The notes beneath the pieces were generated by a model. That model was not told the DNA's origin, did not search any database, and saw only the letters and a list, made by a program, of their open reading frames with translations. Positions 44,165 through 64,000 of a stretch of DNA of 64,000 nucleotides are shown in pieces. The position numbers and the translations under genes were made by a program. The stretch's first letter is position 1; each line of letters starts with the position of its first letter. The DNA comes from Tanypteryx hageni (lineage: Eukaryota; Arthropoda; Insecta; Odonata; Petaluridae), in assembly GCA_028673005.1 (NCBI GenBank), contig CM054115.1:5501501-5565500 (forward strand), in the 5' to 3' direction.

Positions 44165-46330
44165 CCCACTCCAGTTTATCTCCTTTTTCATTCTCCTGGT
44201 TTTGTTATCCGAGCTTCCACTACCGGTCTTCGCTACCTCGAGGCAACGGCAGATCTTCTTCGCTCTGCTAGATGAATGCTCCACGTGATCTCCAGCTACC
44301 AGTCTCCTAGCCGAGGTCCTCCTTCAAGAAGATCTCTAAGTTGTTTTCTGCTCAGGATATCCCAATCTCTGTGGTAGAGACCTGAACAGCAAACACGTCA
44401 GCTGGAACTCCACTGTCGAGAATCTCCGGGGGTCTATCCTCAGGTGATGGGCGGATACTGCACGAGTTGGCGTCGTGGGACCAGTCCATCTGACCCGCTA
44501 CCACCACACAGGCTCCAACAATGTCTTGGACGTCTTTCTGCATCGCAGTCTCTCCTGCTCACTCCACGTCTCCACCATTTCGTGCCTCTCGAGCGATTCT
44601 TGGCACCCGCCCGCGCCTTCTCCCCCAGGACGATTTTCTGAACTTCCAGCAAGCGGACTGGGAACTATTCCGTCGCCAACTGACGAACATGCTGCCTGAG
44701 GAGCTACCGCAACTGAACACCCCGGAAGAGGTAGACGACTGCGTCATTCATCTCACCTCTTGTGCGGAGGAAGAGGCGGAGAAGTCGGTGCCCAGGCGTA
44801 CCTGCAGACCACCAAACTACTTGGAGATACCTGCGCGAATCAAGGCTGAGATTTGCGAGAAGAATCGCATCCGGAGGAGATTGCAGATGAAGCGGCGAAT
44901 GGTGCAGATGCAGCATTCCATCAACGACGCGACCGGGACTTTCGGCAATGAGATGTGGGATAAGAAGCTCTCCTCCCTCAACACCGAGGATGGATCCATC
45001 TGGAGGATGGCCCGTGCACTTCGGGTAGACCCGATGTCGAACCCTTCCCTCCCCACAGTCATTCGGGAATTGGTTGGCCTTCCTCTTCCCCATCTGTATG
45101 AAGATTGGGCACTTCCCCACGCCCCGGAAAGTTGCAAGGATTCTCTGCATCCCGAAGGGGAAGGCGTCGAGGAACCCAGCGCAGTACCGTCCATTCTCAC
45201 TTCTGGACGGCCCAGTCAAGCTGTTCGAGCTCATCATCATGCCGCATCTTCTGCGTCACCTGAAGGCAATTTGGTTTCCATGCGGAGTTTGCCGCTATTC
45301 ACCAGCTGGTGAGAGTGTGCAACTTCGTCACTGACACCTTCAACAAGGGGCATCACGTCGCGGGAGCTTTCTTCGACGTGACCAAAGCTTTCGACTGCAT
45401 GTGGCATTAAGGACTCCTGCAGAAGATGACATGCTTCATCTTCCCGGGATGGATCGTCCTACTCATTGGGTGCTACCTCCACGACCGCACATTCCGTGTC
45501 GCGTGGCATCAGGCTACATCGAAGATGAAGAAGATCAGCGCCGGGGTTCCACAGGGGTCGGTCCTGGACCCGACGCTGTACAACATCTTCACGGCGGACG
45601 TCCCGGTCGACCTTGGGTGGAACACTATACTTTCGCTGTATGCAGATGATGCGGCCCTCCTGTGCCGGTCGTCTCAGAAGAAGGAGAAGGCAGCTGAGTA
45701 TCTTCAGCGGGCCTCGGACATCTTTCTCGCCCAGTTTGAGAAATGAAAGCTCCAGGTGAACCCCCGGAAGACTCAGACAATCCTGTTCTCCACCAGAAAG
45801 TCTCCAGACCAGGGCGGCATCCTCATCGGCGCCGAAGAAGTGGAGTGGATGGAAGAGATCATCTACCTGGGGGTGCCCATCGACCGGAAGCTTTGATTCC
45901 AAAAACACGCTACGCAGGTCGCCCATCGCGCCCTCGGAACGAAGATTCGCCTTGCACCGCTTCTCCGTAGCCGTCACATCAGCATCAAGAGGAAGCTCCA
46001 CCTCTATCGCGCTAGTCTTTCCCTGCCTTGCTTATGCCTCTCCGGCTTAGAGTGGCAGACTTTGCGCCGTCGGCCAGCATCGGCTAGGAGTTGCCGAACG
46101 CGCCTGCCTCCGATCCATCGTGGGGCGTTCCTAGGGTCAGCGCAATTCTGACATCTACGCAACGCTTAACTTCGTCCCCGTCCCCGACATGCTTCAAGAT
46201 CGTGTGAGGCGATTCTTCGCCTTGACGCTGCTCAAACGCGCCGAAATTCTTCGGAGTGTTGCCGACTCGCGCCCCTTGCCATGGGATAGGCACAAGCGCC
46301 CTCGTTCATGACCGGAGAAATAAAAATTTT
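44165..46330 (+). mobile_element. Jockey-clade LINE, 5'-truncated, several frameshifts
   Basis: GC-rich against an AT-rich background. The order on the plus strand is endonuclease C-terminus (DLNSKHVSWNSTVENLRGSI, 44380-44450), linker (44521-45050, DGSIWRMARALRVDP), and RT blocks in shifting frames: FFDVTKAFDCMWH (45372-45410), SAGVPQGSVLDPTLYNIFT (45538-45595), LSLYADDAALLC (45635-45670), LGVPIDRKL (45870-45895). A C-terminus reading PWDRHKRPRS ends at TGA 46308-46310. A short 3' UTR with AATAAA abuts the Polinton. The final ~150 bp reappear inverted at 63838-64000. Confidence 0.8.
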
Positions 46331-46335
46331 TATTT
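46173..46335 (+). repeat. Jockey 3' end as part of an extended inverted repeat (left arm)
   Basis: Every base from 46173 to 46335 is mirrored on the opposite strand at 63838-64000, continuing the Polinton inverted repeat outward without a break. The junction contains the 18-bp perfect palindrome AAATAAAAATTTTTATTT (46318-46335), also present at 63838-63855. The mirror continues to the window edge. Confidence 0.9.
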
Positions 46336-47723
46336 AGTTTTCTTAATTATTAATCATTACATTTTCCAATATTTCGACTAAATATACTATTCAAACTACT
46401 CGGTAATGATTTTTTACAATACTACTCTTTTGTAAAGAAATTAAAAATAATAACTAAATGTGTACCTATAATAAATCTCTTAACTTATTTAATTTTATAA
46501 TGGCGGATGGAATCAAAAATAAGTTACGACTTTCTGGGTGTGAATATAAAATAAACGGCGCAATATACATTGCACAAAATTTCTCATGTACGTTTGGTCG
46601 ACTGTGTACGTTTATAAAAGAAAAACGCTTATAAATCCAAGTTAACCGTAGTTTAATGTATATTTCAATGTCACTGGTCAATATTTAGTAATTTTTTGAG
46701 ACATGTGGCTTAGTAAGTATTATTTGTGACATCAGCCTAGTAGGAATAAAAAGCGGCTTTTGGGACAACCTTGACCATGAATTGGCGAATACGTGTGTGA
46801 ACTGACCTATACGTGGACTGTGTTGAGTTCTGCGTAAGTCATTGACCTTGTCGTAGGTCTGGTTGGGTCATTGGCCTGGTAGTGTGTATGATGTAGGTGG
46901 GATTTTGTTAAAAAGCGGGGATTGGGACAACCTAGTCTGTGAATTGGCGAATATTGAATTGGCGAATACGTGTGTGAGCTGACCGTGTTGAGTTCTGCGT
47001 AAGTCCTTGTCGTAGGTCATTGGTCTGGTTGTGTGTATGATTCAGGTGTGATTCTGTGTGTGATTAGCGATGATGTTGTGGAATGATGTGATATTGTGTA
47101 AGGTAATGTTATTGGTTTTGCGTTAGTGTGGTCATTGGCCTGGTTGTGTGTATGATTCAGGTGTGATTCTGCGTGTGTTTTGTAATGATGTTGTGGAATG
47201 ATGTGATATTGTGTAAGGTAATGGTACTGGTTTTGCGTTATTGTTGATATTCGCATGGAAGTTGAATGACCCTTTCCCTTCTGCGTCATTCGTTGACCCT
47301 AATTTTCGCAATGTTTACATGTTTGAGGTGTGTATGTGTAAAGATGTGATTTTGCAGAGTCATTGACCTAGTGGTAGGTCTGTTTCGGTCATTGCGTGTT
47401 TTTATATTCGAATGGGGGTGATATTGTGTAAGGTAATGGTATTGGTTTTGCGTTATTGTTGATATTCGCAATGTTTACCTGTTCGGTATGAGTTAGTGCG
47501 ATATGGTGTAGCCAAGTGAAAGTTGAATGACCCTTTCGCTTCTGCGCCAGTCGTTGACCCGTGGAGGGGATAGGGCCTTCCAATATTTACATCTGCGTGT
47601 GTTTTGGTTTCTCCTCAGCGCGTGTCTTCGGTCGGTCGTTTACCCTTCTAAGCAGGTTTTGGACGAGCTAAGTAGGTCACCAACTTTTAGGTAAAGAAAA
47701 ACCGGTTCTGAGTGGGGTGGGGA
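46336..47723 (+). repeat. Polinton left terminal inverted repeat (1388 bp)
   Basis: Complementary to 62335-63837 with few mismatches. The outer ~400 bp are unique AT-rich sequence. The inner part has GAATTGGCGAATACGTGTG repeats (about 46783, 46936 and 46964) and a minisatellite of ~115-bp units with GTCATTGGCCTGGTTGTGTG and GATTCAGGTGTGATTCTG (about 47015-47245). This arm carries one unit fewer than the right arm. Open frames inside are by-products of the repeats. Confidence 0.93.
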
Positions 47724-47771
47724 CGGTTGAAATGATTCAAAATGAAACAACATCGAGTAGGCAGATCATGT

Positions 47772-48345: not shown

Positions 48346-49077
48346 TTAATCAGTTTCATCACAACATGAAAAACCAAACATGATAAAATTGCGTTTTTCT
48401 CTTCTGTGATCATCTAGTGGTACATCACCTTCACGCCACTGTGTCATCCGCAATCCGCAGTAAACACATTGAACTGTATCGTATGTTCCGCAGCAGTACA
48501 CCATTCCGGCTTCGGCGAGATTCTCAGGAGACACCGATGTATTCTTCCATTCCTTGAATGTCTTTATGCGTGCACTTCTTTCCAATAAATTAATGTCACT
48601 TAAATTGAGACGACACCATTCAGCGAGAGAAAATGCCCGACTGTGGGAGCAAATATCTGGCATATCTATTCGAAAATGGTAAATACACTCAGTACCAATT
48701 CTCTTATTCAGCTTCTCTAGTGCAGGGCAGTCGAAGTCATCTAAGTTATAGACATTTTTAATTTGCGAATGGATGGCCTTTCTTAGAAATTTACACTTTT
48801 CCACTCCTTTAGTAAAGATGTAATCGAATGGCCTTGTATATTCCTTCAATATGTATTCTGCCATATCATATTCCACATCGCCAATATGCTCATCTATAGC
48901 ATGATACTCTTGCGTGGTCCATACATTGACGCTATTTGAATGATTTTCCAACTTAGGCGTTTTAAAAATCCAATGTTGACTTGCAAAGGTGTTTAATGAG
49001 ATTATGGATAATTCTCGCAACAAAAAACGTCCCGATGCATCTTTGTCAAGATTGAAGTCAACAATAGCTGAATTCAT
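48346..49077 (-). CDS. BIR (IAP-repeat) domain protein of the Polinton
   Basis: 243 aa. Residues 1-155 form a domain with VDFNLDKDASGRFLLREL, a HWIF strand and FDYIFTKGVEKCKFL; this looks like a recurrent Polinton/insect transposon domain, perhaps nuclease-like (inference). Residues about 163-243 fit a baculoviral IAP repeat: a leading SARIKTFKEW, LAEAGMVYCCGTYDTVQCVY, C-x2-C zinc ligands, then W-x4-DVPLDDH with the zinc-ligand histidine. The fourth ligand, normally a Cys seven residues after that His, is Phe here (one base from Cys). BIR proteins bind caspases or IAP antagonists and block apoptosis. No RING domain follows. It is the last gene of the capsid block. Confidence 0.8.
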   Translation of the reverse strand: MNSAIVDFNLDKDASGRFLLRELSIISLNTFASQHWIFKTPKLENHSNSVNVWTTQEYHAIDEHIGDVEYDMAEYILKEYTRPFDYIFTKGVEKCKFLRKAIHSQIKNVYNLDDFDCPALEKLNKRIGTECIYHFRIDMPDICSHSRAFSLAEWCRLNLSDINLLERSARIKTFKEWKNTSVSPENLAEAGMVYCCGTYDTVQCVYCGLRMTQWREGDVPLDDHRREKRNFIMFGFSCCDETD

Positions 49078-49144: not shown

Positions 49145-50323
49145 TCAGCGGATCATACCAAAATGACTCATCACTAAGCAATGAGCGCTAGTTCTAGATA
49201 GGAAATTTGTTTCTGATTCGAAGTCTACTCTAACGTCTACAGCACCTGAAGTGATTGATTCATCTTGCTTCGAACAATCAATGACTACGATAGGTGCGAT
49301 ATTAACGAATTGATCACGTGACAACAAAGGTTTTGGTTCATTTCCATAATATGATTTCTGAAATTTTGCGTACATATTGTGAAGCTCAGCTATCTGCCCC
49401 TTGCTAAAATTTAAATCTAATACATCGTAGGGGAAACTTTTATTATTGAGAAAAACTTGAATGCCTCTTAAATTACAGTGGTCGAAAACACTGCTATCCC
49501 GCTGTACAATATTATTCCGTGATGTTTGAAATGCGAATATAACATAACGAGGTTTACCAAACTGAGAGGTTGTCTTTACGACCCAAGTCTGTTTTTCACT
49601 TCTCGGTAATTCTGGGTAGGATGAAAGTTTCCAGCGTCGATACGTTATCTGAATAGGTTTATTTTGATCAATACGTTTGAGTAAAAGTAATTTCTGCTTA
49701 TCGGATACTGTAACATATGGAATTCTCCAACAAATCTTATCAATTGTAATTTTAGCTTTCACATTATTGGAAGATACGTAGCAGTTATCATCAGTGCGTG
49801 CTCTGATTAAAATGAGTTCATGATTTCCGTTGATAAAAATCTTATCATTATCTTCCATTAACCCAAACATTGTATTCAGCGGGATGCAAACGTTAAAATT
49901 CCCATCTTCCAATACCTCGCTCGACTTTCCGGGGATTACCCATCCTGCATTTAGTAATCCTTTCGATGTACTATCTGTTAGTGAAACATAACCCTTGAGA
50001 GTGCAGGTAACTCCTGGATTTCTCACGCTGTCTATTTCAGCACCATTTAAACAATAACGAGCCTCAGAAAAAAGATGATAAAAAGCATTATTTACAAGCG
50101 TGGTGGTTGATGCTATACCGGATCCATCTTTATTAGTAATATGACCTTCTATATAGATGTGACTTTGACTTGGAAGAATAAAATCAGATTGATTTTGAAC
50201 TACCATGCGAATTTCATCATTGTAATCGAACTTTGATTGTGTGTAAGGATGATGAGTATGGTACTCGATGGAAGTTATTGATTCATCATAACGCGCACTG
50301 GAGTCTATATTTAAAATATCCAT
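49145..50323 (-). CDS. Major capsid protein, double-jelly-roll
   Basis: 392 aa, intact. It matches the double-jelly-roll capsid family of arthropod Polintons: an N-terminal MDILNIDSSARYDESI, SQSHIYIEGHITNKDGS, YCLNGAEIDSVRNPG, TLKGYVSLTDSTSKGLLNAG, KITIDKICWRIPYVTVSD and a C-terminal jelly roll with GIQVFLNNKSFPYD and YGNEPKPLLSRDQF. Trimers would form the pseudo-hexagonal capsomers. It starts 13 bp inside the end of the 49-aa upstream gene, the tight overlap of a polycistronic late block. No lesion was seen. Confidence 0.85.
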   Translation of the reverse strand: MDILNIDSSARYDESITSIEYHTHHPYTQSKFDYNDEIRMVVQNQSDFILPSQSHIYIEGHITNKDGSGIASTTTLVNNAFYHLFSEARYCLNGAEIDSVRNPGVTCTLKGYVSLTDSTSKGLLNAGWVIPGKSSEVLEDGNFNVCIPLNTMFGLMEDNDKIFINGNHELILIRARTDDNCYVSSNNVKAKITIDKICWRIPYVTVSDKQKLLLLKRIDQNKPIQITYRRWKLSSYPELPRSEKQTWVVKTTSQFGKPRYVIFAFQTSRNNIVQRDSSVFDHCNLRGIQVFLNNKSFPYDVLDLNFSKGQIAELHNMYAKFQKSYYGNEPKPLLSRDQFVNIAPIVVIDCSKQDESITSGAVDVRVDFESETNFLSRTSAHCLVMSHFGMIR

Positions 50324-51135: not shown

Positions 51136-52281
51136 CTAATTACAATTCCAGATGTTTGCATCTTTATTCAAAAATTTTAAACATAAATGACCGCAATTTA
51201 CAGCTTTTGTTTTCTGATATCTATCTCTGTTATAATGAATCGTGCTATTTTTAAAATAATTTAGGAGTTCTGTAGGTGGTGGAAGATTTCCAAAACTGTC
51301 AAAGTAATCAACATGTTTGCCCGTTTTTCTGTAACACACCCAATGTGTTCCCGCCCCATCAGAGTCATCCAAATTTACAATACCACTCTCATTAGACCAC
51401 GGCGATCGTAAAGGCAGACCGTCTCTCATAAATACGCCTCGAAAATTTGGAATATTTAACTTCTTAACATAGTGAATTAGATCAAAATTGGAGAGCGCTC
51501 TCTTAGGTAACCTACTTAAAAGTTTTTTTTTATTCGGTGGTGAAATGTATAAGCCTAATCCCTTCTTATATGGTTTCATATAGAGCCCTTTCCCACGCAA
51601 CGCTATTGCTTCCATTCTAGCATTATGTCTTTTCGATTCTTCCAATCTCTTTTTTGCGGCATTTGCCTCAGAAGCAGCTTTTATTATACCTGATGCACCA
51701 CCTGCCAAACCACCTAATGCTGACAACCCTGCAAATAAAGGTATTAGTGGGATAATTCCTCCAGTCTTTGGAATTGGTATAACTCTAGGCGTAGTATATT
51801 TACTCCTTTTCTTTTTCACATCCCTTCGAATAACATTAAGTGTTAATTTAGCAGCCTGATTGAGGTTTTTATTTTTCAAGTTTTTCATTGCTACTCGAGC
51901 TCTCCGCATGATATTTCTAAAACAGTTAGACTTTCTAGTTCCACTACCCACCTTCACTTTTGCTTTCATTATATTCGTAACTATACCTGCAGATATCTTT
52001 TCACCTAAACTCGCGTCTTTTGATTTTACACGTTGCCAAGCCTTTTCGGCTAGTTCGAGGTCGGCTTTATGGCTATCAGATATATCTTTAGATTTAGAGT
52101 ATGCTATGTCGTGTTGTTTACAATAAGCATCTAGTGGATTTATACCTTGATCTCCTCTTGCAAGACGTTGTTTTAATTTCGTCCCTGGACCACAGAATTG
52201 GTACCCTGGTAAATGAAGCTCAAATGGTAACTTATTAATGACACTATTCACCAGTCCTTTTCCAGATGCGTACCGACTCAT
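51136..52281 (-). CDS. Fusion: phospholipase A2-like domain + membrane-active linker + adenain-type protease
   Basis: 381 aa, intact. Residues about 22-90 carry a parvovirus-VP1-type PLA2: the calcium loop YQFCGPGT and the catalytic LDAYCKQHDIAYS (His-Asp), followed by a KADLELAEKAW helix. Residues about 100-170 are very basic. Residues about 175-205 are a hydrophobic Gly/Ala segment (PLIPLFAGLSALGGLAGGAS), as in membrane-lytic capsid proteins. Residues about 265-381 are an adenain-like cysteine protease with His in GTHWVCY, Asp in YFDSFG, Gln in YQKTKAV and Cys in NCGHLCLKF. Expected roles are virion maturation by proteolysis and membrane penetration by the PLA2. It is the first gene of the minus-strand capsid block, 65 bp from the divergent ATPase gene. 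Confidence 0.85.
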   Translation of the reverse strand: MSRYASGKGLVNSVINKLPFELHLPGYQFCGPGTKLKQRLARGDQGINPLDAYCKQHDIAYSKSKDISDSHKADLELAEKAWQRVKSKDASLGEKISAGIVTNIMKAKVKVGSGTRKSNCFRNIMRRARVAMKNLKNKNLNQAAKLTLNVIRRDVKKKRSKYTTPRVIPIPKTGGIIPLIPLFAGLSALGGLAGGASGIIKAASEANAAKKRLEESKRHNARMEAIALRGKGLYMKPYKKGLGLYISPPNKKKLLSRLPKRALSNFDLIHYVKKLNIPNFRGVFMRDGLPLRSPWSNESGIVNLDDSDGAGTHWVCYRKTGKHVDYFDSFGNLPPPTELLNYFKNSTIHYNRDRYQKTKAVNCGHLCLKFLNKDANIWNCN

Positions 52282-52346: not shown

Positions 52347-53042
52347 ATGGAGGTAGAGGAACAGTGCGAAAAGCTCCCGATAGGTACATTCTCGTTTGAT
52401 GAATGTAAACCGCGCGAGAGGCATGGTCCCTTGCTTCCTGAAAGTATCCGCTGCATTGTTTGCGGTCCATCTAATTCTGGTAAAACAAATGTAGTAATTA
52501 ATCTTCTCACAGAGACAAATGGGCTAAAGTATGAAAACGTGTATTTATACAGTAAGTCGTTGAATCAACCAAAATATTTATTTCTGCAAAATATTCTTTC
52601 CTTAGTTCCTGAAATTGGACACTTCTTTTTCAAAGACAACAAAGGAGTTGTAAATATAGATGATGTAAGACCGCACTCTGTATTTATATTTGATGACATT
52701 TCTTGTGAAAAGCAAGATAATATGAGAATATATTTTAGCAGTGGTCGGCACAAGATGGTTGATTGTTTTTATCTTGCTCAGACTTATTCAAAAGTTCCGA
52801 AGCAATTGATACGGGATAATGTAAATTTGATTATACTTTTTAAGCAGGATGAATTAAATCTCAAGCATATTTATGATGATCATGTAAATACGGATATGAC
52901 CTTTGCGCAATTTAAGAACATATGCATGGAGTGTTGGAGGGATAAATATGGCTTTATGGTAATAGATAAAGAATGTGATATTAATAAGGGACACTATAGA
53001 AAAATGTTTGATTCTTTTATAAAACCACACAACATTTCATAG
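52347..53042 (+). CDS. FtsK/HerA-type genome-packaging ATPase
   Basis: 231 aa, intact. Walker A GPSNSGKTNVVINLL lies at residues about 36-50, Walker B SVFIFDDISCEKQDN at about 112-126, and a sensor-like FYLAQTYSKVPKQLIRDNVN at about 140-160. The size and motif spacing match the A32-like packaging ATPases of Polintons and related large DNA viruses. It would pump the element's DNA into preformed capsids. It is the first gene of the plus-strand cluster; the next start codon is 35 bp downstream. Confidence 0.88.
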   Translation: MEVEEQCEKLPIGTFSFDECKPRERHGPLLPESIRCIVCGPSNSGKTNVVINLLTETNGLKYENVYLYSKSLNQPKYLFLQNILSLVPEIGHFFFKDNKGVVNIDDVRPHSVFIFDDISCEKQDNMRIYFSSGRHKMVDCFYLAQTYSKVPKQLIRDNVNLIILFKQDELNLKHIYDDHVNTDMTFAQFKNICMECWRDKYGFMVIDKECDINKGHYRKMFDSFIKPHNIS

Positions 53043-53886: not shown

Positions 53887-54645
53887 ATGCCTGTGGATAA
53901 GTTTGGACGTTCTTTGAGGAGAAGAAGGAGGATGGATTCGTATGACATGCTAGGAAATCGTCTAACAAATTTAGCTTCTCCTATAGACACCAATGATGCT
54001 GTCACAAAAGGATATTTGAGAGATAACACACTTTCATTGACTGAACATCAAATAAATGCTGACAATCGTCGCATATCTAATATAGGCAAATCTCTTCAAC
54101 CTAGAGATGCTGTCTCAAAAGAGTACGTGGACTTTCGAATACCAGGAGCGACGAGACATTATATTTCAGCAGGTGGACGAAGAATCGTAAGTGCGAAAGA
54201 ACCAATAGATGAGGGTGATGTAGTAAATAAACGTTTTTTGCTTCAAAATGCTATAACAATAGCAAAAGACACTACGAGTGCAAAGAAAACCCGAATAACG
54301 GATTTGAATGATCCTCAGGATGAATATGATGCAGTTAATTATAAGACCTTGCTTACAAAATTACAGAATGCTGTTATTATGGATAGCGGTGTGATAGATG
54401 TGAAAAGTCATCGAATAACAAACGTATCAAACCCTCAAGATGAAAGTGACGCTGTTAATTTTAAGACTTTGCTTGAAAGCTCAACAGTTCATCTAAATCA
54501 TGTTGCAAATAACACTATCACGCTAAATAAGAATAAATTTGATGCACGCGGACATGCTCTGACTAATGTGAGAGATCCTGTGGAAGAAACAGACGTTGTC
54601 AATTTGGGTTATTTGAGGAGATTGCTTTTAAAACGTCAGTATTAA
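53887..54645 (+). CDS. Fibre-like repeat protein (phage tail-fibre-type repeats)
   Basis: 252 aa, intact. A basic N-terminus (FGRSLRRRRRMDSYDM) is followed by six degenerate repeats of about 35-42 residues with the pattern R-[IL]-x-N-[VLI]-x-[DN]-P-x(2-3)-x-DAV-[NT]-x-x-[YFT]-L. Examples: RLTNLASPIDTNDAVTKGYL, RITDLNDPQDEYDAVNYKT, RITNVSNPQDESDAVNFKT, ALTNVRDPVEETDVVNLGYL. Such repeats build trimeric shafts in phage tail fibres. Its place beside packaging genes suggests a virion spike for attachment (inference). No globular receptor-binding knob is evident: the protein ends right after the last repeat (LLLKRQY). Confidence 0.75.
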   Translation: MPVDKFGRSLRRRRRMDSYDMLGNRLTNLASPIDTNDAVTKGYLRDNTLSLTEHQINADNRRISNIGKSLQPRDAVSKEYVDFRIPGATRHYISAGGRRIVSAKEPIDEGDVVNKRFLLQNAITIAKDTTSAKKTRITDLNDPQDEYDAVNYKTLLTKLQNAVIMDSGVIDVKSHRITNVSNPQDESDAVNFKTLLESSTVHLNHVANNTITLNKNKFDARGHALTNVRDPVEETDVVNLGYLRRLLLKRQY

Positions 54646-54694: not shown

Positions 54695-55627
54695 GTGAAG
54701 ATGGATATCAGACGTGGAATTGTCAATGAACTTCACAAACCAGCGAGGAAGAATTATGAACGAAGAAAAGTTCTGATAAAAGGTTTGGACGACTTATGGC
54801 AAGCTGATTTGGTAGAAATGCTTTCTTATTCAAGTGAAAATCGTGGATACAAATACCTATTAACCATGATAGATGCCTTATCAAAATACGCTTGGGCTGT
54901 TCCTGTGAAACGAAAAACCTCAGAAGATGTCTCGCGGGCTGTGAAGATGATTATCAAACAAAGGAAACCGAGAAATATTCAAACTGATCAAGGGAAAGAG
55001 TTTTACAACAATAAATTCATTGGTTTGATGAAAAAACATGGAATTAACCATTACAGCACATTTAGCACAATGAAAGCTTCAATAGTAGAACGATGGAACC
55101 GTACTCTTAAAACTGAAATGTGGAAACGATTTAGTTTACAAGGTAACCACAAATGGTTAGCAAAATTACCTATTTTAGTTCAAGAGTATAATAATAGGGT
55201 ACATATAACGATCAAGATGAAACCTGCTGATGTCACTAAGGAGAATGAAAAGGATATATTATCAAGAATTTATCAAAGGAAAATAAGAAAAAGCGCTAAA
55301 AAGGTCAAATTTAGTGAAGGGGAAAATGTACGCATATCAAAAAGCAAGGCAATATTTGAAAAAGGTTTTACACCTTCTTGGTCTACAGAGATATTTGTCA
55401 TAGTTGAAGTAAAAAATACGGTTCCACCAACTTATATTCTCAGAGACCAAAATAATCAACCTATTAAAGGCGGCTTTTATCAAGAGGAATTGCAGAAAAC
55501 AAAGTTCCAGGATGTTTACTTAGTGGAAAAGATTTTGAAGAGACGTGGTAATAAGGCGTACGTTAAATGGTTGGGATTCGACAATTGTTATAACACATGG
55601 GAAGATGTAAATCAAATGTTGAAATAA
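54695..55627 (+). CDS. Retroviral-type integrase with C-terminal chromodomain
   Basis: 310 aa. The rve core has catalytic Asp in WQADLVEML, Asp in IQTDQGKEFYNN and Glu in KASIVERWNRTLK (33 residues between the last two by my count). An SH3-like region follows (FSEGENVRISKSKAIFEKGF, PTYILRDQNNQPIKGGF). Residues about 275-310 are a chromodomain (VYLVEKILKRRGNKAYVKWL, NTWEDV), expected to guide insertion to modified histones. There is no N-terminal HHCC zinc finger. ATG 54695 is chosen because an earlier in-frame stop lies close upstream. It is the last plus-strand gene, followed by AATAAA at 55624. Confidence 0.9.
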   Translation: MKMDIRRGIVNELHKPARKNYERRKVLIKGLDDLWQADLVEMLSYSSENRGYKYLLTMIDALSKYAWAVPVKRKTSEDVSRAVKMIIKQRKPRNIQTDQGKEFYNNKFIGLMKKHGINHYSTFSTMKASIVERWNRTLKTEMWKRFSLQGNHKWLAKLPILVQEYNNRVHITIKMKPADVTKENEKDILSRIYQRKIRKSAKKVKFSEGENVRISKSKAIFEKGFTPSWSTEIFVIVEVKNTVPPTYILRDQNNQPIKGGFYQEELQKTKFQDVYLVEKILKRRGNKAYVKWLGFDNCYNTWEDVNQMLK

Positions 55628-55928: not shown

Positions 55929-58900
55929 TCATTCGTCATTCGAAGTTAAGTAATGACCATGAGCTAATGTATTGATTCCATCACATAAAATGTACCTCTT
56001 GTCATCAAAAGGTGATAACGATAGTTTGTTCACTTTTACAGAATATAACTCATGTTTTTTAGATCTTATCTGTCTAAATGATGTCATTTTTTCTTTACTT
56101 TCTTTCAAACAGTCCAAATAATCTTTGAATTTTATTTTATTGTTAACGGCGCATTTTTTAACGCCTTTGGCACGCTTTTTTTCCTCACCGTCGATGATAA
56201 TGGAATACATCTTTGCTCTCAATCCTACAAATTCAGAGATTGATTTTGCACAGGCTTCATCTTTAAATTTACCCAACACTTTCTTATTTGCCAAAGAATA
56301 ACATTTGTGATCAGTTGGATAGTCTGAAGTATCAAAGAAAGAAATATTTTTTATCAAGTCTTCATAAAAATCATCCGTTTTTACCTCGTAAATAAATGAA
56401 TCTGTATCCATATACAACAATTTTAGATTTTCTTTATCATACATGGACTTCATTACGTTGTAATGAAAATCATACATTAAAATTTTAGATAAATCTAAAA
56501 TTGCCATTCCTACATAAATGGGTTTATCAAAACCAATTTTTTCTTTCGCCATATGTACTGCGACCAGATTTTCCGAATATATGGTTCGATCTAGAAAATT
56601 ACTTTTTGCTATTACTTTTTGCAATCTTTTCATGTCACAGATCAATTCAATATTTATTCTTTTACGTACGTTCTCCATAGATTTCCCAAAAACTGAATTG
56701 TTCATTAATTTAAAGAATTCCTTTTCGAAATCGTTAGTAGCCAATTTCCGCTTCTCAGTATTATTTATTATATATGACTCAAGCCAATTAGATTGTTGAA
56801 ATTCTATTATTCTATTAATATTTTTTAATTTTAACCCTAGCTGTAATGCTTGTTTCAACAGAGAAATGTGAATTACATAGCGTTTCTTATTGAATAATGT
56901 TGTTAGAAGTTTTTTCTGATCTGAACCTGGCGGGTTATCATTTTCAGGTAGAAGGGGAAATTCGTTATGCTGATCGTGAAGGTAACTTGGGTATTCCAAA
57001 TCTACATCTAACAAATACCCTACGGTGCCTTCATCATCAATCTCTTCAATGTCTCCTATATCTTTTGGATCGACCCATCTAAATCCCGAATAAGGCATTT
57101 TTTTACACATACTATACCCATACAAGTTATTTGCGTCTATATATGCTATATATGAACTTTCTTCTCTAGGATTATATTCATTCATGTACTTATTGTTTGC
57201 TTTCGAATATCGTTTAACACATTGAGCCAAACCTCCCCTGATTCCACGTTCTGTCATAATAATCATATCGTAATCAGTCAGTAGACCTAATTTTACTTTA
57301 CTATGTTTGAGGGCGGCTTCCCAAGCAAGTCCGGGGGATGTGAAATAGTAACTAGGATCCAAACCATATGATTGCAAACATTCACTGCGGAAATTCTCAA
57401 ATACATCGACGAGTCCCACAACGTCACCCGTCAGATATATATCGCTGTACTCCCCTAAGTTTTTAACATTGAAAGTCTCCCACACTTTTTAGCATGCTCA
57501 TAGTCAGAAATAGAAAGCTCAGTTTCATTTAATTTATTTACAAAAGAATCCATCGGAGGAAGAAATGGCAATTCTAATTTTTCAAAACAATCGATGAAAT
57601 CATATGGAAAAACACCTTTCTTTGTAATTAATTTAAATTGTTCATTATGAAAGTGTTTTGATGTCTCTACGAATTTTGACGCTGGGAGAATTGACATTAA
57701 ATACTCTAAGCTATAGGGCATAAATCTATATGTATCCACAAATCTTAACTGTATGTTCCCAATATACTTTATAAAGCTAATATATCGCTCCTCTGTATTG
57801 GGAATCACTCCTATCCTCCCTGGAATATTTCCCAGTTCTTTTATAATAAAATGTGAATCATATCTACTCAAATTGTGTATGTACACAGGAATGAAATTCG
57901 GATTCTTAAAATTTAAATTACATATTCGATGAGCAGCTCCTCTAAACTCCCTACTCAAATGAAAATGATCTTTAACTTTATAATTTTTGCTATTTTCTTC
58001 AATTTTTCCTCCGCAAATATGACAATCAGCACAGTTTTTGTAATTTTCTTCTTGTATTGACGTTAATTCTATCATTCCAATTTTCCTTGCATAAATATCT
58101 GAAATTTTGTTTGCTAGATAAGCTAAGTACTCTACTAATTTATATGCTGCATCTACTCCTCGATATATGTATGGTTTCTGTGGAATAATATCTGCCGCAA
58201 AAGATGATTTAACATAAACGCAAAAGCTCATTGCTTCATGTTTCTGATATGAAGACGTGTGGGAACTTGTCGGATCTCCAGGACAACCTTGAATGGGTAG
58301 TAATATTGATTCGATATCAGCATAAATTACAAAGGGAACTCGAAGTTTGTTTTGATAATTTTTAAATTCTATATGCGGTACTTTACCATCTTTAATTTCA
58401 GGCAGAACAATTCTTGTTGGATGATTAAATTTACGTAATTCTAAATGATTTCTTAATCGAATTTCACGGTCAATACCTGTGTAGTAATTAAAACATCGTT
58501 TACAAATCGATATTGAACGTTTACTTTTAATAAGTTGACGGGAAATTAGTCTATTGAAGTTCTTTATCCAAACATAGTGAATTTCTTTGCCCTCAGTCAA
58601 TAGCAACAGATCGCGATGATCCACTAATTCTTCATCAACAACTTTCAACGGATACACATTAGAGTCATTATCAATACCGAATACGTTGATGCTAATGTTA
58701 TTTCGACGTTCAAATAATTTTATCTGATTCAAAGGTGTGGGAAAATTTATACAGTCAAAATCGTAAGAATGAGTTATATTTCTGTAGGAACTTACTCTCT
58801 CAGGATGGTGAATGGTAACTAATTTTCCAAGAATAGAATATCGAAAACAATTATTGTCTAAATTTTGCACATTTACACATGCTCTAGTTGATGCTATGAA

Positions 58901-59448
58901 ATTTGGTAGATTAATATATTTTCTTCCTCTTAAAGGTTTAAACACGTTAATTCTAAGTAATATGTGAACAATTTCATTTAACATCCACCCACTTTTTTTT
59001 GTTCCACTCTCTTCCATCTCACATGTGATTTTTTTTAGGGCTGAATCTACCATCTCACCTACATTTGAATCCATATAAAGAGCTATATTTCTAGTTTTGA
59101 AAGCTCGCTTCTGTTCTTCACCAGCAATATTGACGAAGTTACATTCTAAAAATATGTTAAATTTTAATGTTTTATCTACTATTAAATTTTTTCTAATTTT
59201 ATCAACCAAATATATTCTTTTATTTTCTAGAAATGTTTCTACACTCTTATAATCCTTAATATTACTAAATTTATAGGTTCTCAAAGAACCATTAAATGCT
59301 ACTTCTACTTCGTCTTCTTCAACTCTTCTTTTTTATCGCCGATCACCGACGTGTCTCTTTCACTTTCTAAATCATTACCCACGATCGGACTGTTTGTATA
59401 ACTGTCTAAATATTCACTCAATTTTCTTTTTTTCCAGTGTTTTTCCAT
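55929..59448 (-). pseudogene. Protein-primed family B DNA polymerase, two single-base frameshifts
   Basis: From ATG 59448 a short frame (MEKHWKKRKLSEYL...) runs 40-odd codons. The main frames are 59284-57455 and 57485-55929. Exonuclease motifs: YADIES (Exo I), HNLSRYDSHFI (Exo II), and DYEHA at the first/second frame junction. A zinc-knuckle-like CHICGG...C region is at about residue 415 of the first large frame. Polymerase motifs: DANNLYGYSM (A), NNSVFGKSMENV (B) and LYMDTDSF (C). Both breaks lie in A runs of the coding strand (59334-59329 and 57487-57483) and each is consistent with loss of one A. Protein-primed PolB copies the element from its terminal repeats. Confidence 0.9.
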
Positions 59449-60959: not shown

Positions 60960-61265
60960 TTTGTTTATTTTCTATGACGATTCCAATCAATTTTTAAATT
61001 GTTTTTGTACATAATTTATGATAGTGAATTTTCTATGACGAGTCCAAATAAATTAATTTATAATTCGTTTATGCATATTCATTTTGTTTCCGAAAGTATA
61101 TTTTCTATGATGGATCACAAAATATTTTTTGTTAATCGAAATCTTTCTGTCTCTAGCGGAGTTCTCCCAATTCGTTTCTGCACATTCATTCTGTGCGTTT
61201 CCGAAAGAATACTTTCTATGATAGGTCCTAAATAATTAATTTTTAATCTAAATCTTTCTCTGTCT
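60960..61265. repeat. ~108-bp tandem duplication overlapping the 3' end of the PPP1R15-like gene
   Basis: TTTCCGAAAG with TTTCTATGAT recurs at about 61198-61226 and 61090-61116 (period about 108-110). Further decayed TTTCTATGACGA copies are at about 61030 and 60972. CGTTTCTGCACATTCATTC (61171) is echoed at 61066. The duplication puts a second, shorter copy of the protein's C-terminal segment (RFRLTKNIL) just before the stop. Confidence 0.75.
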
Positions 61266-61426
61266 CTAGCAATGGTCTCCCAGTAACATTTTCTTGCTTC
61301 TCTGCTAGCAAACGAATATACATACAAAACTTTCACGCTTATATTATCTCCAAATCTTACAGATTTCTCGGATACTATTGGCTCTCTCTTCTCCTCATGA
61401 ATCGAGGTCAGCTTCTGTGAATCCAT
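61115..61426 (-). CDS. PPP1R15 (GADD34)-like PP1-recruiting protein
   Basis: About 103 aa, ATG at 61426. Residues 21-25 (KSVRF) are a protein phosphatase 1 docking RVxF motif, followed by a hydrophobic strand (SVKVLYVYSF) and at residues 48-62 YWETIARDRERFRLK. The combination RVxF - hydrophobic - W-x2-[LI]-ARDR-x-RF at this spacing is the conserved core of PPP1R15 proteins, which bring PP1 to phospho-eIF2alpha and restore translation during stress; some large DNA viruses carry equivalents. It has no transmembrane or PEST region, only the core. The last ~15 residues come from a 108-bp tandem duplication. It is divergent from the 61538 gene. Assignment is from motif recognition only. Confidence 0.72.
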   Translation of the reverse strand: MDSQKLTSIHEEKREPIVSEKSVRFGDNISVKVLYVYSFASREARKCYWETIARDRERFRLKINYLGPIIESILSETHRMNVQKRIGRTPLETERFRLTKNIL

Positions 61427-61443
61427 TTCTTTTTTTTGTCGGA

Positions 61444-61450
61444 TATAAAT
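61444..61450 (+). promoter_or_regulatory. TATA box of the 61538 gene (may also serve the divergent gene)
   Basis: GGATATAAATGG, about 90 bp before ATG 61538. On the minus strand the same site reads TTTATATCC about 20 bp before the PPP1R15-like ATG at 61426, so it could direct both genes. Confidence 0.5.
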
Positions 61451-61537
61451 GGACTCGTCAAGCGACCACGATGGTACTGCGCTAACGGCTGGTGTGTGGT
61501 AAACTACTACCGTGTCTAGAGATATACCGAGACAACC

Positions 61538-62101
61538 ATGAGTGGAAAATACGCAATATTGCTTACAGCCGTTAAGATTACAACTCAGGGTGACGAGAAG
61601 TGTACCTCTCAGATATTAAGTGAAACTCACGAAATTCAAAATTTAGATTATTTACGTCTCCGCAGCTATGATTTCACTTTAGCAACATTGGAATTACCAG
61701 GTGAATATTTGTTGCAGCTTTCCCTTGGAACTCGTGCGTCTTTTGAAGATGTGTTGACAGAAGATAATCTCTCTGATGTGACAGAAGACATTTTAAGTTT
61801 CGTGTTAATCATAGAAAGGAAGATATGTGGCAATGTTTTACCACCTCTTCTTATGCAGTGTGAAGATGGTAAAAAGTCTTCATCAAAGTGTAAAATAAAT
61901 GAACATATTGACGTGATAATAACATTAAGACTCATACAATTATTGGATAATGGTTTCAGAAAAGAACTTATCGAAGCAAAGAAAGACGATTTGGGGAAAA
62001 GTGGACTGGTGAAGTCGTTATTAAAAGAGGCCATAACCAATGAAGCGACATGGAGGTTATTTAATAATAAATATAGAATGAGTATGGAGCAATGTTTGTA
62101 A
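61538..62101 (+). CDS. Polinton right-arm protein of unknown function (187 aa)
   Basis: 187 aa, intact. MSGKYAILLTAVKITTQGDE, YLRLRSYDFTLATLELPGEY, TEDNLSDVTEDILSFVLIIE and a helical C-terminus (DVIITLRLIQLLDNGFRKEL, KSLLKEAITNEATWRLFNNK). No signal peptide, membrane segment or zinc motif. It starts behind a TATA box and ends with an AATAAA signal (62130). It faces outward towards the right terminal repeat like the BIR gene on the other arm, and shares that gene's 3' flank. I do not recognise the family. Confidence 0.65.
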   Translation: MSGKYAILLTAVKITTQGDEKCTSQILSETHEIQNLDYLRLRSYDFTLATLELPGEYLLQLSLGTRASFEDVLTEDNLSDVTEDILSFVLIIERKICGNVLPPLLMQCEDGKKSSSKCKINEHIDVIITLRLIQLLDNGFRKELIEAKKDDLGKSGLVKSLLKEAITNEATWRLFNNKYRMSMEQCL

Positions 62102-62232: not shown

Positions 62233-62334
62233 CACCACCCAGGTATTAAACATAACTTTCTCTTCCGACACGCTGGAGCAACCGCAGGTCTTTTAATTTC
62301 CCTTTCTTAATTTGAGGTCCCAATCCTTCTCCCC
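62233..62334. other. Spacer to right terminal repeat
   Basis: About 100 bp of pyrimidine-rich unique sequence. The corresponding left spacer is about 490 bp and holds the 70-aa frame. Confidence 0.5.
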
Positions 62335-63837
62335 TCCCCACCCCACTCAGAACCGGTTTTTCTTTACCTAAAAGTTGGTGACCTACTTAGCTCGTCCAAA
62401 ACCTGCTTAGAAGGGTAAACGACCGACCGAAGACACGCGCTGAGGAGAAACCAAAACACACGCAGATGTAAATATTGGAAGGCCCTATCCCCTCCACGGG
62501 TCAACGACTGGCGCAGAAGCGAAAGGGTCATTCAACTTTCACTTGGCTACACCATATCGCACTAACTCATACCGAACAGGTAAACATTGCGAATATCAAC
62601 AATAACGCAAAACCAATACCATTACCTTACACAATATCACCCCCATTCGAATATAAAAACACGCAATGACCGAAACAGACCTACCACTAGGTCAATGACT
62701 CTGCAAAATCACATCTTTACACATACACACCTCAAACATGTAAACATTGCGAAAATTAGGGTCAACGAATGACGCAGAAGGGAAAGGGTCATTCAACTTC
62801 CATGCGAATATCAACAATAACGCAAAACCAGTACCATTACCTTACACAATATCACATCATTCCACAACATCATTACAAAACACACGCAGAATCACACCTG
62901 AATCATACACACAACCAGGCCAATGACCACACTAACGAAAAACCAATAACATTACCTTACACAATATCACATCATTCCACAACATCATCGCTAATCACAC
63001 ACAGAATCACACCTTAATCATACACACAACCAGGCCAATGACCACACTTACGCAAAACCAATACCATTACCTTACAAAATATAACATCATTTCACAACAT
63101 CATCGCTAAACACACACAGAATCACACCTGAATCATACACACAACCAGACCAATGACCTACGACAAGGACTTACGCAGAACTCAACACGGTCAGCTCACA
63201 CACGTATTCGCCAATTCAATATTCGCCAATTCACAGACTAGGTTGTCCCAATCCCCGCTTTTTAACAAAATCCCACCTACATCATACACACTACCAGGCC
63301 AATGACCCAACCAGACCTACGACAAGGTCAATGACTTACGCAGAACTCAACACAGTCCACGTATAGGTCAGTTCACACACGTATTCGCCAATTCATGGTC
63401 AAGGTTGTCCCAAAAGCCGCTTTTTATTCCTACTAGGCTGATGTCACAAATAATACTTACTAAGCCACATGTCTCAAAAAATTACTAAATATTGACCAGT
63501 GACATTGAAATATACATTAAACTACGGTTAACTTGGATTTATAAGCGTTTTTCTTTTATAAACGTACACAGTCGACCAAACGTACATGAGAAATTTTGTG
63601 CAATGTATATTGCGCCGTTTATTTTATATTCACACCCAGAAAGTCGTAACTTATTTTTGATTCCATCCGCCATTATAAAATTAAATAAGTTAAGAGATTT
63701 ATTATAGGTACACATTTAGTTATTATTTTTAATTTCTTTACAAAAGAGTAGTATTGTAAAAAATCATTACCGAGTAGTTTGAATAGTATATTTAGTCGAA
63801 ATATTGGAAAATGTAATGATTAATAATTAAGAAAACT
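62335..63837 (-). repeat. Polinton right terminal inverted repeat (1503 bp)
   Basis: Complement of 46336-47723. It contains three 115-bp minisatellite units starting at AATCACACCT (62890, 63005, 63120), one more than the left arm. This accounts exactly for the length difference. Confidence 0.93.
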
Positions 63838-64000
63838 AAATAAAAATTTTTATTTCTCCGGTCATGAACGAGGGCGCTTGTGCCTATCCCATGGCAAGGG
63901 GCGCGAGTCGGCAACACTCCGAAGAATTTCGGCGCGTTTGAGCAGCGTCAAGGCGAAGAATCGCCTCACACGATCTTGAAGCATGTCGGGGACGGGGACG
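63838..64000 (-). repeat. Inverted copy of the Jockey 3' end (right arm of extended inverted repeat)
   Basis: The minus strand from 64000 to 63838 reads as the C-terminal codons, stop and 3' UTR of the Jockey element exactly as at 46173-46335. It is cut by the window edge. Confidence 0.9.

Follow-up and report, generated by a model that had tools for sequence, protein, structure and literature searches.

A Polinton of about 17.9 kb in the genome of the odonate Tanypteryx hageni carries an intronless gene for a protein of 103 residues that, as profile and PDB comparisons confirm at the level of sequence, is homologous to PPP1R15 (GADD34/CReP), the resemblance going beyond chance. We read it, with a probability of about 0.8, as an accessory gene of the Polinton whose product, a minimal PPP1R15 core, would recruit PP1 to dephosphorylate eIF2alpha during particle making. 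This is in essence what a first-pass annotation of the window (the whole 64,000-nucleotide stretch of DNA that was analysed) had proposed, and overall its interpretation is supported. The gene and its immediate surroundings are as follows:

61115..61426, minus strand: PPP1R15-like gene, intronless, 103 aa, ATG to TGA, assigned by phmmer and PPP1R15 profile scores
61352..61366, minus strand: KSVRF, RVxF-type PP1-docking motif, residues 21-25; V23 and F25 align with human V556 and F558
61238..61294, minus strand: R45, W49 and the RDRERFRLKI helix, residues 45-63, equivalent to human R578, W582, R591, F592 and I596
61172..61192, minus strand: residues 79-85, with R79 and R85 equivalent to human R612 and R618 (alignment; passages of PMC8500838 and PMC10743859)
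61055..61171, minus strand: degenerate second copy of the W...RDR segment in tandem, 111 nt from repeat to repeat, reading NWENSARDRK out of the gene's frame
61427..61537, no strand: 111-bp interval between two diverging genes, defined by its position between the frames
61538..62101, plus strand: neighbouring diverging ORF, 187 aa, without Pfam match

A phmmer search of the PDB with the 103-residue protein gave PPP1R15A chains as its two best hits, 7nzm_C (E=1.2e-4, aligned without gaps over the 73 residues 21-93) and 4xpn_B (E=0.0016); two unrelated chains came next (E 0.12 and 0.16), ahead of a PPP1R15B chain (0.25). Against Pfam PF10488 the frame scored 18.2 bits (E=0.0021); the curated cut-off, 26.1, is reached neither by it nor by the terminal exon of the host's own PPP1R15, at 20.5 bits. 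A profile of 44 PPP1R15-like sequences placed the frame first among the 1054 six-frame window frames, with 77.7 bits (E=4.5e-23); this profile contains no Polinton rows and is not fully independent, because 41 of its 44 members were retrieved with an alignment in which Polinton rows were present. A strict profile, made from the host PPP1R15, the Ladona, Hetaerina and human sequences and again free of Polinton rows, also ranked the frame first of 1054, with 53.5 bits (E=1.1e-15). The best shuffled sequences reached 13.9 bits with the 44-sequence profile and 13.1 bits with the strict one (20000 shuffles made per profile, of which 19262 and 18028, respectively, were scored). In the reverse direction, a profile of seven Polinton pieces only returned 7 distinct PDB sequences at E<=10 (best 8.5e-10), and all 7 are PPP1R15A, PPP1R15B or DP71L of African swine fever virus (ASFV). 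The protein search with the 103-residue frame as sole query returned no relative, and the one with the family alignment returned 45 proteins, 41 of them with PF10488 annotated; some of the short ones may be viral. The profile match that the annotation had asked for is significant.

Both motifs on which the annotation was built are where it placed them: residues 21-25 read KSVRF and residues 48-59 read YWETIARDRERF. Its claim that order and spacing follow the PPP1R15 core also holds for most positions, with the alignment to 7nzm_C running without a gap. In human GADD34 numbering (window residue + 533), V556, F558, V564, R578, W582, E583, A586, R587, D588, R589, R591, F592, I596, R612 and R618 are all kept at identical spacing, and H565 is changed to K, R594 to L (L61) and R595 to K (K62); human K555 is S in the window protein, which has its K one residue earlier. 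Thus V31 of the phi-phi strand and the Arg-pocket residue R45 stand at identical distances, with K instead of H in the second phi position, and in the helix for actin and eIF2alpha W49, R58, F59 and I63 are kept. According to passages of PMC8500838, F592, R595 and R612 contact actin in the GADD34 complex, and R591 and R594 contact eIF2alpha. In PPP1R15B, mutation of R658, W662, F672 or I676 attenuated the response to actin (a passage of PMC4394352); these four correspond by spacing to R45, W49, F59 and I63, and all four are kept. The ColabFold single-chain model has helices at 48-73 and 76-86, with pLDDT 84-93 in the block of residues 51-80; outside this block confidence is lower, and over the whole model it is weak (mean pLDDT 69.9, pTM 0.33). 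Foldseek with this model gave no meaningful match (best E 6.3).

The protein owes its tail and its stop to the broken-down duplicate of the W...RDR segment; of the two copies, the first remains intact. The frame of the tandem copy, 61056-61235 (minus strand), ranks third of 1054 with the 44-sequence profile (8.2 bits) and second with the strict one (10.7 bits). An intact first copy beside a broken-down duplicate is a further sign of selection on the gene. At the other end, the start codon lies in GAAATGG, with a purine at -3 and G at +4. The 187-residue neighbour is 75-77% identical in the older copies L025, L026 and L029, and the 111-bp interval that separates it from the PPP1R15-like gene is, judging from its position, perhaps a promoter region shared by both diverging genes.

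That the gene belongs to a Polinton, as the annotation had it, is well founded: it sits between the terminal inverted repeats (TIRs) of an element whose capsid, ATPase and integrase genes all score above their Pfam cut-offs.

46139..47731, plus strand: left TIR, starting with AG
48346..49077, minus strand: BIR-domain protein (PF00653, 57.2 bits, above cut-off)
49145..50323, minus strand: double-jelly-roll major capsid protein (PF21738, 342.5 bits, above cut-off)
51136..52281, minus strand: protein with a phospholipase A2-like domain (PF08398, 46.1 bits, above cut-off)
52347..53042, plus strand: packaging ATPase, pox A32-like (PF04665, 26.6 bits, above cut-off)
54701..55627, plus strand: retrovirus-like integrase (PF00665, 59.9 bits, above cut-off) with a chromodomain-like tail (PF00385, 19.4 bits, below cut-off)
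55929..59074, minus strand: two frames of a putative polymerase, with related frames in two other Polinton families
62327..64000, minus strand: right TIR, ending with CT 34 bp past the window (64034), as read from L048

The outer 534 bp of the TIRs are 100% identical and the inner arms 98-99% complementary. A 6-bp target-site duplication was not seen in the one copy checked, that of the window, the flanks of which differ; later rearrangement may be the cause. From their motifs, we take the two frames at 55929..59074 to be a protein-primed DNA polymerase B, a name that searches of Pfam, PHROGs and the PDB did not supply, and the C-terminal part of the 51136..52281 frame is presumably an adenain-like protease. 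Two stretches of a further ORF, 53887-54645 (plus strand), match the N-terminal domain of the phage T7 tail fibre (PF03906, 71.5 bits), and its product is perhaps a fibre protein.

The gene is not peculiar to this copy. The genome (G000, 1.68 Gb) contains at least 152 matches to it, among which at least 73 listed copies are 100% identical over the 103 residues and some others have stops in the gene. Capsid-gene copies number at least 105, and for 88 of these 105 a PPP1R15-like match is listed no more than 25 kb away, usually at the 11-12 kb seen in the window; the other 17 have none listed within that distance. The pairing drew on 129 of the 152 matches, without the weak ones and the later fragments, and all these counts are lower bounds. 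Capsid-gene copies also occur in tandem, with a spacing of 5.74 kb, at G000:C4:198095716-198108357 and C827:7004-13905, with no listed PPP1R15-like match within 25 kb.

The core occurs, moreover, in three divergent Polinton families, that of the window (F1) and two others (F2 and F3), so that the presence in related Polintons which the annotation had proposed to look for is seen both within and beyond F1. Four copies of F2 were found (L022, L023, L024 and L049), all of them decayed; relative to F1, their putative polymerase segments are 41-60% identical and their PPP1R15 core 51-58%. Frames with repeats of the form VNWxxISxxQxLSExFI adjoin the PPP1R15-like gene in F2 (L022:4669-5019, minus strand; L024:3760-4110, plus strand), the L024 frame having no Pfam match. 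In F3 (L045 and others), the putative polymerase segments are 49-55% identical and the integrase 38-40%. The F3 protein (L045:1790-2356) has the PPP1R15 core first and then a domain shared with the BIR protein of the window, matching its N-terminal half with 36% identity over 107 columns (blastp E=2e-20). This core scores 27.1 bits on PF10488 when cut to 56 aa (cut-off 26.1) and 24.4 bits uncut. A search of the genome with the F3 protein gave 1513 first-look candidates, of which 150 were scored, and 16 of the 150 scored rows begin at query residue 1 or 3, reaching into the core. The shared domain, which has a KGxEKCxFL motif and is without confident Pfam match, is fused to BIR in F1 and to PPP1R15 in F3. 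Another F3 Polinton (L050:2054-3622, plus strand) carries frames with matrixin (PF00413) and hemopexin (PF00045) domains, that is, a matrix-metalloproteinase-like gene.

The pattern of substitutions suggests purifying selection on the PPP1R15-like gene. Nei-Gojobori omega lies between 0.24 and 0.37 in six of seven gene pairs: F1/L026 (codons 1-28, 0.24; 29-84, 0.24; 29-95, 0.37), F1/L027 (0.37), F1/F2 (0.24) and, within F3, L045/L058 (0.28), L045/L060 (0.26) and L058/L060 (0.24). The seventh, F1/L029, gave 0.24 for codons 1-28 and 1.11 for codons 57-95, the latter a short comparison. When the same changes were placed at random in simulations of six pairs, five had uncorrected neutral P values from 0 of 5000 to 0.041 (F1/F2, 0 of 5000; F1/L026, 0.008; L045/L060, 0.009; L045/L058, 0.039; F1/L027, 0.041), and L045/L062 was not significant (P=0.105); pairs within F1 and within F3 are not independent, because they share sequences. 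Diversity among the F1 copies is left out of this argument for selection, since the 32 that were compared had been retrieved according to score.

By analogy with PPP1R15, the protein would act as follows. KSVRF and the strand after it, together with R45, would dock onto the catalytic subunit of PP1. The helix W49-K62, with R79, would serve both to bind G-actin and to offer R58 to the N-terminal domain of eIF2alpha; PP1 would then take the phosphate off Ser51. Translation would thereby continue even if particle production sets off a stress kinase, be it PERK, GCN2 or another. The homology points to PP1 docking and substrate presentation as the most likely activities of the Polinton protein; these, like expression of the gene, dephosphorylation of eIF2alpha and a benefit to the element, are inferred.

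Where the gene came from is a separate matter. The host has its own PPP1R15, a separate intron-bearing gene with its core exon at G000:C2:231585723-231585911 (L021); three exons, joined by eye, give about 619 aa counted from the chosen ATG, and VRF follows immediately on an intron. Its C-terminus retrieved two proteins, from Ladona fulva (72%) and Hetaerina americana (PPP1R15, 68%), and in a tree of the core it joins Hetaerina with support 97/86. The Polinton proteins are not placed inside this odonate clade in the short-core tree, and the term host-derived, which the annotation had used, is thus valid in a broad sense only. The AU test rejected neither of two constraints: F1 and F2 grouped with the odonates (p-AU 0.20), or the seven Polinton rows grouped with one another (p-AU 0.35). 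With a core this short, the tree cannot point to a donor. The gene could also have been taken, with the same function, from another insect DNA virus of the granulovirus type instead of an insect genome, an origin we consider rather unlikely. It would fit the existence of PPP1R15 in insect viruses (coGV-gp036 in a passage of PMC4394352) and the position outside odonate PPP1R15, itself without strong placement, whereas the constraint of F1 and F2 with odonates was tolerated and scans of IMG/VR, in which few insect viruses are expected, found no viral relative with F1, two hit proteins (P0033 and P0025), F3 or P0037 as query. Nor did the capsid protein of F1 or one of its putative polymerase frames find a relative there; the F3 putative polymerase frame found one distant contig (L063), on which the PPP1R15 profile matched nothing at E<=0.5.

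Less probable still is a PP1 recruiter descended from PPP1R15 that has turned to another substrate, or that sequesters PP1 or actin, acting for example on the phosphorylation of capsid or polymerase. The L at the R594 position, an eIF2alpha contact in GADD34, would agree with this, as would the K that F3 has at the position of R612 and its strand, shorter by five residues. Nevertheless, the host PPP1R15 also lacks R at the R594 position (it has C), the helix facing actin and eIF2alpha is among the best-conserved parts across the families, and the F3 spacing is that of human R15B in the alignment (15 residues from the motif F to the pocket Arg, against 20 in F1, F2 and R15A). A recent retrocopy of the host PPP1R15, landed by chance in one Polinton as a passenger, is very improbable: the Polinton gene is indeed intronless and the host core exon, as read from the sequence, begins at VRF after an intron, but we set this account aside in view of an identity to the host core of 38% only, a different N-terminus, the presence of the gene in three divergent families and P values below 0.05 in five of the six simulated pairs. 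Finally, that a random frame should resemble two short motifs by chance, as the single-sequence PF10488 score below cut-off might suggest, has a negligible probability and is ruled out by profile scores far above the shuffles and by PDB matches of PPP1R15 type only.

Returning to the reading of the gene as a Polinton accessory that counters translational shut-off, the three families suggest a wider arrangement, which we put forward tentatively, at somewhat less than even odds: odonate Polintons may have a common carrier domain with interchangeable host-response modules, BIR in F1 and PPP1R15 in F3, with PPP1R15 standing alone in F1 and F2. The BIR module would then be of an anti-apoptotic type and the PPP1R15 module of an anti-shut-off type, a division that we hold just as tentatively. 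Insects are not known to have PKR. Were the modules real, odonate Polintons would face translational shut-off based on eIF2alpha, as a real viral phase would lead one to expect, and insects would still use the eIF2alpha arm against DNA viruses. It has long been debated whether Polintons are transposons or viruses with an infectious phase. A maintained anti-shut-off gene is what would be expected of a particle maker in cells that resist it, and one small protein thus offers a concrete test; phosphorylation of eIF2alpha would be a likely insect response to Polintons.

Viral PPP1R15 proteins are already established, and our limited search of the open-licence literature found no paper on PPP1R15/GADD34 in Polintons. 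The Polinton protein shares with PPP1R15A/GADD34 and PPP1R15B/CReP the core of about 70 aa, with the RVxF motif, hydrophobic strand, Arg, Trp and RDRxRF helix, and differs from them in lacking the long N-terminal region, in being intronless, in residing on a mobile element and, for the window protein, in having K for R595 and L for R594. The host PPP1R15 has a core of the same type, but is a protein of about 619 aa with an intron before VRF, a 3-residue insertion in the strand and 38% identity to F1 over the core. HSV-1 gamma34.5 (named as a viral PPP1R15 protein in a passage of PMC10807198) and the granulovirus protein coGV-gp036 resemble the Polinton protein as viral PPP1R15 proteins, a likeness by description only, and belong to different virus classes. 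ASFV DP71L, whose short form in the passage of PMC10807198 that describes it is a viral PPP1R15 protein of 70-72 aa with a KxVRF motif, is likewise a minimal viral core, and a chain of it (9nb9_B) matches the Polinton-only profile with E=2.6e-6; DP71L belongs to a free virus of pigs and ticks, whereas the Polinton is integrated, in many copies, in an insect genome.
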